Assembly: GCF_007050985.1 (NCBI RefSeq)
Contig: NZ_VHSF01000001.1
Span: forward strand, 1,116,001 to 1,180,000
Direction: 5' to 3'
Length of the DNA stretch: 64,000 bases
Source of the DNA: Christiangramia sabulilitoris
GTDB lineage: Bacteria; Bacteroidota; Bacteroidia; Flavobacteriales; Flavobacteriaceae
Below the pieces are notes generated by a model. It saw only the letters and a list, made by a program, of their open reading frames with translations. It was not told the DNA's origin and ran no database searches. Shown piece after piece: positions 7,173 to 36,830 of this stretch; the first letter of the stretch is position 1; each line of letters opens with the position of its first letter. The position numbers and the translations under genes were made by a program.

Positions 7173-9401
7173 TTAAAACCAGAATCCAAGACTGAAGAAC
7201 CAGTAGCTTTCCCGGAGTTCAGGAGAGTATGTATACTTTGCTTCTAAAGGCCCCATAAAGGTATCGATCCCGTAACCCAGGGCATAACCAGTAAAGTCTG
7301 GAAGAGTGAACCAGTTTCCGGTGGAATATAAACGGTCTTCCACATTAGCGATATTCGCGCTGGCAATGAGGTGGTTTTTTCGCCATATCTGGTAATCGAT
7401 CTCAAAAAGAGCTTTTATATAACTATCCCCCGAAAGGCTTAGAAAATCGTAACCATAAAATGGCTTAATATTATTAATAAAATCATTCCCGTAGCCACCC
7501 AGGAAAAAGTCAAGAACCTCTGTACCATCATTTCCAATTTTGAAACCTGTTTCAGAAGAAAGACGGGTAGTTAACTTTTTAAAGGGTGTAACCGCATATC
7601 CTATTGTTCCCCTGGCAATAGAGAATTCGGCAAAATTGTCATTAAAGTCTGAAGAATAAAGATACAGGTGAAAATCCCCGCTAAAGCTCACCCCCTTAGT
7701 GGGGAAATATTTATTGTCGTAGGAGTCATACTTTAAATATCCAAAGGCGCTGGCATAATTACTATTATCGAAAACCAACTCGCTATTCTGGTTATTGGGA
7801 TCATTCACCGAGCTGCTGCTTAACTTCAAGTATTTATGTTCCAGCCCTGCACCAATTGAGAATACCTGTTGGAAAAGAGTTTCTACATAAAACTGGTTGG
7901 TGAAATCTTTCAAATTAATCTCCAGCTCGGCAATTGAAGATAAGCCTCCATCATTTTCACTTTGTCTTATATTCTCCAGCTTGACACCTTTTCCGAAGGT
8001 ATTATATCTTGAATTTATCCCCACGCTCCAGTAATAACCTTTATCTATATAATAGTTAAAATTATACCTGAGATTATCACCTACGATCACATCGAGAGAA
8101 GCCACATCATTGGTGAAAAGCAAACTTTTCCTGGTTAGGTTGACTAAGGCACTACTTTTATATAGTTCGTCATAATGCAAACCAAGCCGCAATAACATCT
8201 TATTCTCACTCTCTTCGATCTGCATTGCCAGTGTATAATTACCTTTTTCGTCTACAGGCAGTAGTTGATAATTTATCCGGTCAAAATTCCCGGTCGCTGA
8301 AAGGTTATTAATACCAATATTCAGCTCATTAAAACCATAGGTTTTTTCATAGTTCAGTTTAAGTTTTCCCTGAACGTAAGCTTTAGGATAAGTACTGTTC
8401 CCTTCCAGCGTAAGGCCACTAATATTGAAAGTGTCAATCTTTTCAACCCTATCCCGCTGAAAATCTTCTGAGGTATTCCGGGCCAGATCCTTTATTTCTG
8501 TCAGCTTGCGTAAAGCTGCCACCTTACCTGAATCTATGATCGCATTTCCTTCTTCAAAAGACATTACCGTAAATGGTGAGATATCAGGTTTAATATAAAT
8601 ATCGGTTAAAGGGATCTTTTCTTTCATATCATTGATCGTCCTGAAATTGCTTATTTGGGTCATGATATCAAAAACGCCTTTTAACTTATCTCTTTTTACC
8701 AGGCTATCCTGTACATCAACCCCAATCACAATATCTGCACCTCTTCTGCGAAGTTCTTCAACAGGATAATTATTAGCAACCCCTCCATCGGTAAGCAACT
8801 GGTCATCAATTTTTATGGGACTTAGAATAGTGGGGATCGCTCCGCTGGCAGAAATTGCTTTTGCCAAAGATCCTTTATCAAGGATCACCGCCTCTCCCGT
8901 CTCCACATTGGCAGCCACGCAAAAGAATGGTATTTGAAGTTTACTAAAATCGTTGACATCACTTACATGTATCGTAAGCCGGGACATTAAATTATAGATA
9001 TTCTGACCTTTAAAGAGGCCCGTTGGAAATGAAATATCAAAATTATCGAAAGGAAGGGTGATCGCGTATTTTTCAGAATCCTCTTTTTCGTAGAAGGTTT
9101 TTGCTCTTCTGGGGAGATCATCCTGGATAAGAATATCAAAATTTGTCTGGTTAAAAATGGAATCGAGTTCCCTGGCGGTATATCCAGAAGCATACAAACC
9201 ACCAATGATCGCACCCATACTACTACCCCCTATATAGTCTATTTTTACACCCTGTTCTTCCAGAACTTTCAGCACGCCAATATGAGCCAGTCCTTTTGCT
9301 CCTCCTCCGCTTAGCACCAATCCAATTTTAGGCCCGGCATTCTCCTGGGCTATCCCTGGAAAGGTAAAACAAAGTAAAAGTAGAGCTAAAAGTTTTCGCA
9401 T
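7173..9401 (-). CDS. Patatin-like phospholipase with outer-membrane beta-barrel (PlpD-type)
   Basis: 742 aa. A signal peptide (MRKLLALLLLCFTFPGIAQ) precedes a patatin domain at about residues 25-215, with oxyanion motif GGGAKG, nucleophile motif GGSSMGA (GxSxG) and catalytic-dyad motif DGGVANN. A POTRA-like segment follows near 325-385 (ISGLTLEGNSTYP), then a C-terminal 16-strand-type barrel ending ESYWFFSLGFWF with the terminal aromatic expected for BAM-dependent insertion. This is the PlpD/type Vd layout: a lipid-acyl hydrolase carried by an Omp85-like barrel. Whether the patatin is released or stays attached cannot be told. It starts immediately after the uvrC stop, so the two are co-transcribed. 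Confidence 0.9.
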   Translation of the reverse strand: MRKLLALLLLCFTFPGIAQENAGPKIGLVLSGGGAKGLAHIGVLKVLEEQGVKIDYIGGSSMGAIIGGLYASGYTARELDSIFNQTNFDILIQDDLPRRAKTFYEKEDSEKYAITLPFDNFDISFPTGLFKGQNIYNLMSRLTIHVSDVNDFSKLQIPFFCVAANVETGEAVILDKGSLAKAISASGAIPTILSPIKIDDQLLTDGGVANNYPVEELRRRGADIVIGVDVQDSLVKRDKLKGVFDIMTQISNFRTINDMKEKIPLTDIYIKPDISPFTVMSFEEGNAIIDSGKVAALRKLTEIKDLARNTSEDFQRDRVEKIDTFNISGLTLEGNSTYPKAYVQGKLKLNYEKTYGFNELNIGINNLSATGNFDRINYQLLPVDEKGNYTLAMQIEESENKMLLRLGLHYDELYKSSALVNLTRKSLLFTNDVASLDVIVGDNLRYNFNYYIDKGYYWSVGINSRYNTFGKGVKLENIRQSENDGGLSSIAELEINLKDFTNQFYVETLFQQVFSIGAGLEHKYLKLSSSSVNDPNNQNSELVFDNSNYASAFGYLKYDSYDNKYFPTKGVSFSGDFHLYLYSSDFNDNFAEFSIARGTIGYAVTPFKKLTTRLSSETGFKIGNDGTEVLDFFLGGYGNDFINNIKPFYGYDFLSLSGDSYIKALFEIDYQIWRKNHLIASANIANVEDRLYSTGNWFTLPDFTGYALGYGIDTFMGPLEAKYTYSPELRESYWFFSLGFWF

Positions 9402-35884: not shown

Positions 35885-36090
35885 TATTTCCATCAAGTCG
35901 ACAAAAACTAAACGATTATAAGCGTGTGCTTAAAGTGCTAACAAATAAATACTACCAGTTTAACCTTATTATCAACAATATATTAAGTTAAAATTAATAA
36001 TGTTTCCTACAGGTGTTCTCTATGCATGGTTTTTTACTAATCACCTTTTAATTTATAGCTCAGCATAGCCTCACGCTCAAACCTTAATTG
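35885..36090. other. Gap without a recognised gene
   Basis: AT-rich stretch between the hairpin upstream of the porin gene and the tRNA-linked repeat array. I see no reading frame of note, hairpin or repeat in it. Confidence 0.4.
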
Positions 36091-36578
36091 CATAAAAAAA
36101 GCCCGGCATAAATACCAGGCTTTTCACTTTGTAGCTCCTCCTCTTGGGCTCCCTTCGACTCGTACCTCGCTCAGGATAAACTTCTCGCCCAAAGTAAAAC
36201 CCATAAAAAAAGCCCGGCGTAAGCACCAGGCTTTTCACTTTGTAGCTCCTCCTCTTGGGCTCCCTTCGACTCGTTCCTCGCTCAGGATAAACTTCTCGCC
36301 CAAAATAATTCCCATAAAAAAAGCCCGGCGTAAACACCAGGCTTTTCACTTTGTAGCTCCTCCTCTTGGGCTCCCTTCGACTCGTTCCTCGCTCAGGATA
36401 AACTTCTCGCCCAAAATAAAACCCATAAAAAAAGCCCGGTGTAAACACCAGGCTTTTCACTTTGTAGCTCCTCCTCTTGGGCTCCCTTCGACTCGTTCCT
36501 CGCTCAGGATAAACTTCTCGCCCAAAATAAAACCCATAAAAAAAGCCCGGTGTAAACACCAAGCTTTTCACTTTGTAG
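36091..36578 (-). repeat. Tandem array of 111-bp units derived from the 3' end of tRNA-Asn plus its terminator
   Basis: The segment CATAAAAAAAGCCCGG starts at 36091, 36202, 36313, 36424 and 36535, exactly 111 bp apart, giving four full units and a fifth part-unit that runs into the tRNA gene. On the minus strand each unit holds a REP-like spacer (TCCTGAGCGAGG...GAGTCGAAGGG), the last 17 nt of tRNA-Asn, a CTACAAAGTGAAAA linker and a GCCTGGTG...GCCGGGC-type terminator with a T7 tail. Units nearest the tRNA are almost identical; the farthest has drifted most. Stems are kept by G-U/A-U changes. The open frame through the array (111 = 3 x 37) is not considered a gene. Confidence 0.9.
36535..36565 (-). 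terminator. First terminator after tRNA-Asn (one of five in series)
   Basis: Minus-strand stem GCTTGGTG-TTTA-CACCGGGC (8 bp with G-U pairs), then TTTTTTT. Equivalent hairpins recur at 36424, 36313, 36202 and 36091. Confidence 0.8.
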
Positions 36579-36652
36579 CTCCTCCTCTTGGGCTCGAACC
36601 AAGGACCCTCTGATTAACAGTCAGATGCTCTAACCAACTGAGCTAAGGAGGA
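36579..36652 (-). tRNA. tRNA-Asn (anticodon GTT)
   Basis: 74 nt without an encoded CCA. Acceptor stem TCCTCCT/AGGAGGA with discriminator G, D stem GCTC/GAGC, anticodon stem TCTGA/TCAGA around CTGTTAA (anticodon GTT), T stem CTTGG/CCAAG with loop TTCGAGC. All arms pair. The 3' 17 nt are repeated four more times in the downstream array. Confidence 0.95.
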
Positions 36653-36675
36653 ATGTTTTGCTCTCAAAGCGGTTG

Positions 36676-36706
36676 CAAATATAAATCAAATTTTAAATGC
36701 TGTCAA
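36676..36706 (-). promoter_or_regulatory. Promoter of tRNA-Asn
   Basis: On the minus strand, TTG (complement of 36704-36706) and TATATTTG (complement of 36676-36683) are 20 nt apart, an exact Bacteroidota promoter. The start would lie about 17 nt before the mature tRNA. Confidence 0.65.
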
Positions 36707-36830
36707 AAGATTTTTTCGATTTTTTTCGAAGAATTTTTTAAGTTTTTTGAATCTATCGGATTGTCAATATTTTAGATACCTCCAACCTTAATGAATATAT
36801 AAATTATTTAAGTTCCGGATTGCCTTAATA

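Follow-up and report, generated by a model that had tools for sequence, protein, structure and literature searches.

The array behind tRNA-Asn

The window, that is, the whole 64-kb stretch of Christiangramia sabulilitoris DNA that was analysed, carries a tRNA-Asn(GTT) gene on the minus strand at 36578-36652, which places the tandem array at 36091-36595 downstream of the gene. TRF reports this array with exactly these limits, a period of 111, 4.5 copies and a 96% match. The tail of the tRNA, GAGCCCAAGAGGAGGAG, is found five times in the window, with minus-strand starts at 36595, 36484, 36373, 36262 and 36151. One of these is the 3' end of tRNA-Asn itself and four are copies. Elsewhere in the 64 kb the tail does not occur at two or fewer mismatches, and it was found 0 times in 100 shuffles. 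The period and the tail positions agree with the first-pass annotation, which had described five terminators exactly 111 bp apart and full units that contain a 17-nt tail. The array consists of four complete units and a fifth terminator, and its features are as follows (units numbered from the tRNA).

36578-36652, minus: tRNA-Asn(GTT) gene (ARAGORN; Rfam tRNA, 69 bits)
36485-36595, minus: unit 1, the gene's own 3' end (tail), trailer with terminator, and linker (TRF, unit comparison)
36374-36484, minus: unit 2, tail copy, terminator and linker; 1 difference from unit 1 (unit comparison)
36263-36373, minus: unit 3; 4 differences from unit 1 (unit comparison)
36152-36262, minus: unit 4; 5 differences from unit 1 (unit comparison)
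36058-36151, minus: unit 5, partial, tail copy, terminator and decayed linker (36081-36058) (unit comparison, shuffles)
36542-36567, minus: terminator hairpin 1, then a T run; -14.2 kcal/mol
36431-36456, minus: terminator hairpin 2; -17.0 kcal/mol
36320-36345, minus: terminator hairpin 3; -16.6 kcal/mol
36209-36234, minus: terminator hairpin 4; -16.6 kcal/mol
36098-36123, minus: terminator hairpin 5, with a compensatory A-U pair; -15.2 kcal/mol
36475-36527, minus: linker hairpin 1, with arm TTTTGGGC, GAGAAG and REP-like core; pairs with the tail copy GCCCAA (pattern, arm test, fold, covariation)
36364-36416, minus: linker hairpin 2 (pattern, fold)
36253-36305, minus: linker hairpin 3 (pattern)
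36142-36194, minus: linker hairpin 4 (pattern, fold)

Units 1-4 show 1-5 differences per 111 nt. Unit 5 retains its terminator with 5-7 differences in 66 nt, and its linker has decayed; aligned in the correct register, it remains matched in 19 of 25 columns, and 40 of 2000 shuffles score as high. The earlier observation that copies near the tRNA are alike and the farthest has drifted is borne out by these numbers. For each of the five terminators the predicted structure is one and the same 11-bp hairpin, with energies of -14.2 to -17.0 kcal/mol and z-scores of -3.9 to -5.1. A stable hairpin followed by a T run, as in an intrinsic terminator, is found in all five, and a simple terminator pattern scan detected none of them (0/5). 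The single fold persists despite substitutions that include a G-C to A-U swap, so that the stem changes do keep the hairpins paired, as had been claimed. A second hairpin in each unit, formed by TTGGGC and GCCCAA, had also been proposed. It is present in the predicted fold; however, the fold energy is no better than that of shuffles (z -0.62, -0.62 and 0.25 for the three linkers folded). It is the comparison across tRNAs that speaks for the pairing, and not the energy of any single linker.

In an Rfam scan of 35900-36800 the gathering score was reached by the tRNA alone, and RF00391 was absent up to an E-value of 5. Seven neighbouring ORFs, among them those for a PHO4 transporter, a porin O/P protein and an M50 protease, gave no matches to integrase or transposase families. 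An open frame of 164 aa (36077-36571, minus strand) spans the array. It is most likely a by-product of the repeat period, since 111 nt equal 37 codons. The frame matches DUF961 (2.9e-6, 28.1 bits, cut-off 25), and no single stretch of it passes alone.

A linker that recurs behind tRNA genes

The linker has the consensus GAGAAG-YYTRT-CCTGAGC..GYCGAAGG-RA. The pattern GAGAAGNNTNTCCYGAGC gave 52 matches in 14 of 24 Christiangramia/Gramella genomes, and a stricter pattern gave 88 matches, spread over 39 of the 299 family genomes sampled and 36 of 236 genera; each had 0 matches in the reversed control. The 126 linkers considered here, 52 from the genus and 74 from outside it, were gathered by pattern, so the conservation of their core is biased. 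A tRNA on the same strand lies within 900 nt upstream of 117 of the 126, and in 106 a copy of the tail of that tRNA (at least 10 matching nt, at most 2 mismatches) follows the linker. The tail copies start at T-loop position 57-59 and run to the discriminator. The tie to tRNA 3' ends that was first noted for this one array is thus both general and specific. The 126 linkers fall into 91 places, 22 of which have 2-4 units. A pattern scan of named genomes, which shares some species with this set, found at least 119 stretches with at least 142 elements, with a tRNA at at least 124 and a tail copy at at least 115.

Nine of the 126 linkers have no called tRNA (two each in L208, L181 and L212, and one each in L156, L102 and L167). 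The two in L208 and one of those in L181 follow the broken 3' half of a tRNA or the array that belongs to it, and the other in L181 is the second unit there. The L156 linker is preceded by another element, the two in L212 are at a contig edge, and no recognisable tRNA was found for L102 and L167. In L208 and L181 tail-repeat units stand behind what appear to be broken 3' halves of tRNAs, with a complete tRNA not called.

With both scans pooled, linkers are found at tRNAs for at least 13 amino acids; among the matches listed, Pro and Ser occur only in records with Patescibacteria titles. The C. sabulilitoris genome has 10 linkers, the most among the 24 genus genomes, and besides tRNA-Asn they are located at tRNA-Met, tRNA-Gly, tRNA-His and two tRNA-Thr loci. 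The linker is not special to tRNA-Asn, and the array is an example of a widespread repeat type and not a local accident. No earlier description of Flavobacteriaceae tRNA-tail repeats was found in the titles and abstracts retrieved from the open-access literature.

An arm that follows the tRNA

The stretch directly before GAGAAG is complementary to the tail, beginning at tRNA position 59, and it differs from tRNA to tRNA. Examples of arm and tail are GGGAC/GTCCC at Thr, AGGGT/ACCC at Gly, CGGAG/CTCCG at Ala, GAGAC/GTCTC at Leu, and AGGAC/GTCCT or AGGGC/GCCCT at Gln. This variable, tRNA-matched arm is a feature that the first-pass annotation did not contain. A perfect 5-bp arm with tRNA positions 59-63 is present in 53 of 117 cases, against 4.3% when other tRNA types are used, and an arm of at least 4 bp with the next tail copy is present in 130 of 213, against 18% for random pairings. 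Arm-tail pairing stands at 0.69 and falls to 0.18-0.35 when the partner is slid. Among 139 ungapped sequences, Watson-Crick pairs at positions 59-63 number 123, 112, 126, 110 and 93, and past position 63 they number 59, 46, 36, 29 and 38. Arm-tail pairs account for 5 of the 25 best-scoring covarying column pairs in these 139 sequences, in which the strongest pair of all is inside the tail and the near constancy of the core lowers the effective sequence number to only 7.

These pairings bear on a rival account of the array, a plain tandem duplication that has no role and in which the arm pairing is a decaying leftover of the origin. The near identity of the units and the decay of the distal one in the window are in keeping with it, as is the fact that 16 of 24 genus genomes are empty directly behind tRNA-Asn. 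An exact 5-bp arm is found in 76 of the 186 core-bearing tail copies and missing from 110, which is also what a decaying leftover would give. However, one break point, with GAGAAG and an arm matched to the tRNA, is seen again and again at tRNAs for at least 13 amino acids and in Enterobacterales, and pairing, with changes on both sides, has been retained at positions 59-63 but becomes weaker past them. We consider a plain duplication to be quite unlikely.

tRNA-Asn in related genomes and integrase islands

Unit number across relatives, which had been put forward as a check, varies from 0 to 4 at tRNA-Asn in the 24 genus genomes. C. sabulilitoris has 4 units and G015 has 2, the second without a tail copy. 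A single unit was found by script in G001, G004, G005 and G009, and by eye in G017 and in G011, where it has no tail copy; in the other 16 genomes no unit is directly behind tRNA-Asn. At locus L003 the second terminator, behind the tail copy, is similar to the one in an empty relative (L007) and the first terminator differs, and the first and second terminators are also different at L035. The founding step was therefore not a simple tandem duplication. At tRNA-Gly (L044, L061) the first and second terminators are alike. By eye, one of the tRNA-Asn terminator types occurs alone in G002 and the other alone in G019, G006 and others. This distribution would fit a loss, through recombination of one tail with another, as well as a gain through insertion.

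Integrase islands at tRNA-Asn in G007 and G013 are flanked by an exact 43-nt duplication that begins in the anticodon loop, and the island in G012 has a shorter duplication from about the T-stem. The G007 and G013 islands (L372 2667-3917, with an integrase gene, and L374) have a distal copy that is followed by an ordinary-looking terminator. The G012 island apparently entered the tRNA-Asn gene and displaced an older tail unit by about 20 kb.

It had been suggested that the tail copies are a nest of tandem attB-like sites, and they could also be remnants left by tyrosine integrases. Crossovers in the T-loop are known for integrases, and integrase islands of the relatives do use tRNA-Asn. An integrase gene follows a tail copy in provirus L336, and at L005 what comes after the tail copy is similar to island sequence found elsewhere. 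Against this, the island duplications do not start from position 57-59; they are 43 nt from the anticodon loop or begin at about the T-stem, versus 17-18 nt from the T-loop in the array. The G012 island chose the tRNA gene, as it appears, although a tail copy existed. Recombinases of 304-320 aa near some tRNA-Thr and tRNA-Trp linkers, in 9 of 10 genomes searched, resemble a housekeeping gene, presumably a XerC neighbour judging from synteny. The suggestion does not hold up well against these duplications, and we regard attachment sites or integrase remnants as a very improbable explanation of the tail copies.

REP-like hairpins and the search for a carrier

The inner hairpin of the linker, TGAGC-N2-3-GTCGAA, has 40 matches in the C. 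sabulilitoris genome, including the tRNA-linked ones, and 2 in the reversed control. The description of the spacer as REP-like is therefore justified, in that the inner part of the linker belongs to a dispersed hairpin family. Thirty distinct copies were examined (L342-L371); 8 are of the tRNA type and 22 are without the tRNA-type GAGAAG. Matched arms of at least 4 bp flank 15 of these 22 dispersed copies, e.g. CACAT/ATGTG and TGCAC/GTGCA, against 6.6% for crossed pairings. In L005, L100 and L293 hairpin copies are nested or repeated within the linker core, as if REP-like units enter one another.

A profile search found no match to the Y1 transposase family (RAYT, PF01797) in the C. sabulilitoris genome, and 8 of the 24 genus genomes have one. 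In a comparison that ignores kinship, linkers (p 0.03) and REP-like matches (p 0.053) are more numerous where a Y1 transposase is present. Mobilisation by a RAYT, as raised in the first-pass annotation, is disfavoured by the fact that the most linker-rich genus genome, with 10 linkers, is the one from C. sabulilitoris.

Two records beyond the family have the core. L247 (tRNA-Pro, two units) contains the exact 31-nt core, the tail of its own tRNA and an 11-bp perfect arm, and L236 (tRNA-Ser) contains the exact core, the tail of its own tRNA and a 3-bp arm. They were assigned by their record titles, CPR2 and Shapirobacteria, which we take to be Patescibacteria, and contamination of the contigs is possible. 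The full 31-nt core was not found in phage or plasmid records, where the best match was a plasmid with 81% coverage and 92% identity. Eight Sphingomonas parapaucimobilis plasmids (NZ_CP155753 and sisters) have 1-23 places each that resemble approximately positions 6-29 of the core. Among viral contigs there were 9 matching stretches, with a tail element in L336 (by eye) and L337. At the start of the viral-collection contig of L336 (13300-13743, minus strand) is a tail unit similar to that of tRNA-Asn, after which come GGTTCCCA direct repeats and then an integrase gene.

A GIY-YIG nuclease was considered as a carrier and rejected; of 30 loci (L066-L095), two have a tRNA (L078, L095) and four have the CCTGAGC..GTCGAAGG element (L076, L081, L090, L095), so that both are present in L095 only. 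PF01541 (GIY-YIG) matches are present in all 24 genus genomes. On the other side, G003:C10 has two such matches about 0.2-0.5 kb behind a tRNA-Lys unit. Small GIY-YIG matches also occur in regularly spaced tandem at G011:C1:1374364-1375626 (about 520 bp), G014:C17:165-1113 (368 bp), G015:C65:9777-11505 and G000:C1:901878-902457.

The linker could be a mobile REP-like hairpin that is aimed at the T-loop of tRNA genes. A trans-acting enzyme would then insert the core and copy the tail, the target would supply the arm, and tandem arrays would result from repeated insertions. The two Patescibacteria-titled records, in which the same core has a host-specific arm and tail, are consistent with mobility, as are the dispersal of the inner hairpin with matched arms, the unlike terminators of L003, of which the second is like that of the empty L007, and the higher linker number in Y1-transposase genomes (the p of 0.03 is uncorrected). 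However, C. sabulilitoris has its 10 linkers without a PF01797 match, phage and plasmid records gave no carrier with the full core, and arm pairing drops after 5-6 nt, as it would in a selected stem. On this evidence a mobile hairpin is unlikely to be the explanation, though it is the less unlikely one when set beside plain duplication.

Growth of the array and its possible role

The interior of other arrays is homogeneous as well. At L250 in Tamlana nanhaiensis (7201-7811) there are six linkers at 116-bp spacing, and units 2-6 are identical, which fits local tandem amplification; the first unit of such loci contains tRNA sequence and is not comparable. The farthest unit is the most diverged at L206 (Gln) and L198 (Trp), as in the window, and this far-end gradient is absent in L207 and L250.

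The array is a real, recurrent and structured repeat and not a nest of attachment sites. Its unit anatomy recurs behind tRNAs for at least 13 amino acids with an arm that varies with the tRNA, and the break point and GAGAA are found in Enterobacterales as well. We think it probable that the array is the Flavobacteriaceae counterpart of the tyrT/RtT tRNA-tail repeats and has grown by local tandem amplification. One founding unit would have arisen at the tRNA, comprising the tail (57-59 to discriminator), the trailer with its terminator, and a hairpin linker, its left arm complementary to the next tail copy and joined to GAGAAG and a REP-like core. Unequal recombination or slippage during replication would then have increased the number of the near-identical 111-bp direct repeats and kept them alike, with the farthest unit left to drift. 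In RNA the array would form the trailer of the tRNA, with the first terminator ending most transcripts and the later ones acting as back-ups. Read-through RNA would fold each tail copy into a linker hairpin, and RtT-like fragments may be released. A putative role for the array as back-up terminators or as a source of RNA fragments is plausible.

Comparison with known systems

Tyrosine-integrase islands have in common with the array that the 3' portion of a tRNA gene is present more than once, but their copies are kilobases apart and an integrase gene is present. The boundaries of the array are not those of the att duplications at tRNA-Asn in G007, G013 and G012. REP sequences and BIMEs resemble the linkers in being short, dispersed intergenic palindromes that are sometimes in tandem. 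The hairpins are dispersed in C. sabulilitoris as RAYT-moved REPs are, whereas the Y1 transposase is missing from the profile matches of that genome. The Christiangramia core, TGAGC-N2-3-GTCGAA with variable matched arms, is unlike the GTAG- and CGTC-tagged REP families in the main text of PMC3733652, where 'tcga' has 0 occurrences at the start of a word.

The nearest precedent is found in E. coli, where the 178-bp tyrT repeats, which contain a tRNA tail, were recognised decades ago. To our knowledge they have no accepted origin or role. The tyrT/tyrV locus of K-12 has 4 tail copies from position 59; the three repeats behind tyrV each have a 10-bp arm, GGGGAAGGAT, then GAGAAG and the tail copy. 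An exact arm is absent at the tail copy between the two tRNA-Tyr genes in K-12, Klebsiella and Salmonella. The tRNA-Pro units at proK in E. coli, K. pneumoniae and K. aerogenes have the arm GAGGAT followed by GAGAAC, and the unit contains a terminator (by eye), as in the Christiangramia array. These were found in a search with the E. coli core in which matches start downstream of GAGAAC, so this motif was not selected for. A Providencia tRNA-Lys, reached by the same search, shows the same break point, an arm with a one-base gap, and GAGAA. At proK the sequence made up of arm, GAGAA and CCTCC corresponds to a reverse-complemented tRNA T-arm in which GAGAA has replaced the loop TCGAA. This suggests an inverted copy of the T-arm as the possible source of both the arm and GAGAA.

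Rfam labels the E. coli tyrT, enteric proK and Providencia tRNA-Lys elements all as RtT. The RtT core is found in 4692 of 5426 E. coli genomes, at 1-10 places (median 3). The RF00391 model had 0 matches in the 24 genus genomes, with a positive E. coli control, and none at an E-value of 0.01 in 7 Flavobacteriaceae or Patescibacteria loci. The Christiangramia array is not filed as RtT for this reason. PMC4986893 reports that RtT RNA is set free from tRNA transcripts, while the array is known as DNA sequence. The E. coli tail copies also include CCA, unlike those of Christiangramia, and the core sequences differ.

The likeness is one of anatomy, a point that the first-pass annotation lacked. As in the E. 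coli repeats, the units of the array follow a tRNA in tandem, each ends in a tail copy that begins at position 59, the copy number varies, and an arm complementary to the tail is followed by GAGAA. Shared sequence is limited to GAGAA, the arm and the boundary, so that a common descent of the two repeats is no more than possible. Tail repeats in Flavobacteriaceae, Enterobacterales (with RtT as the enteric branch) and Patescibacteria could be one cross-phylum repeat made by a shared, undescribed process at T-loop position 57-59, with the arm copied from the tRNA; we put this forward tentatively and find it rather doubtful. A second set of tail repeats, spread over many tRNAs and genera, offers a comparative handle in the T-loop break point, GAGAA, the tRNA-following arm and the variation in copy number. 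With it the origin and function of tRNA-tail repeats become directly testable, and REP-like hairpins are tied to tRNA genes.
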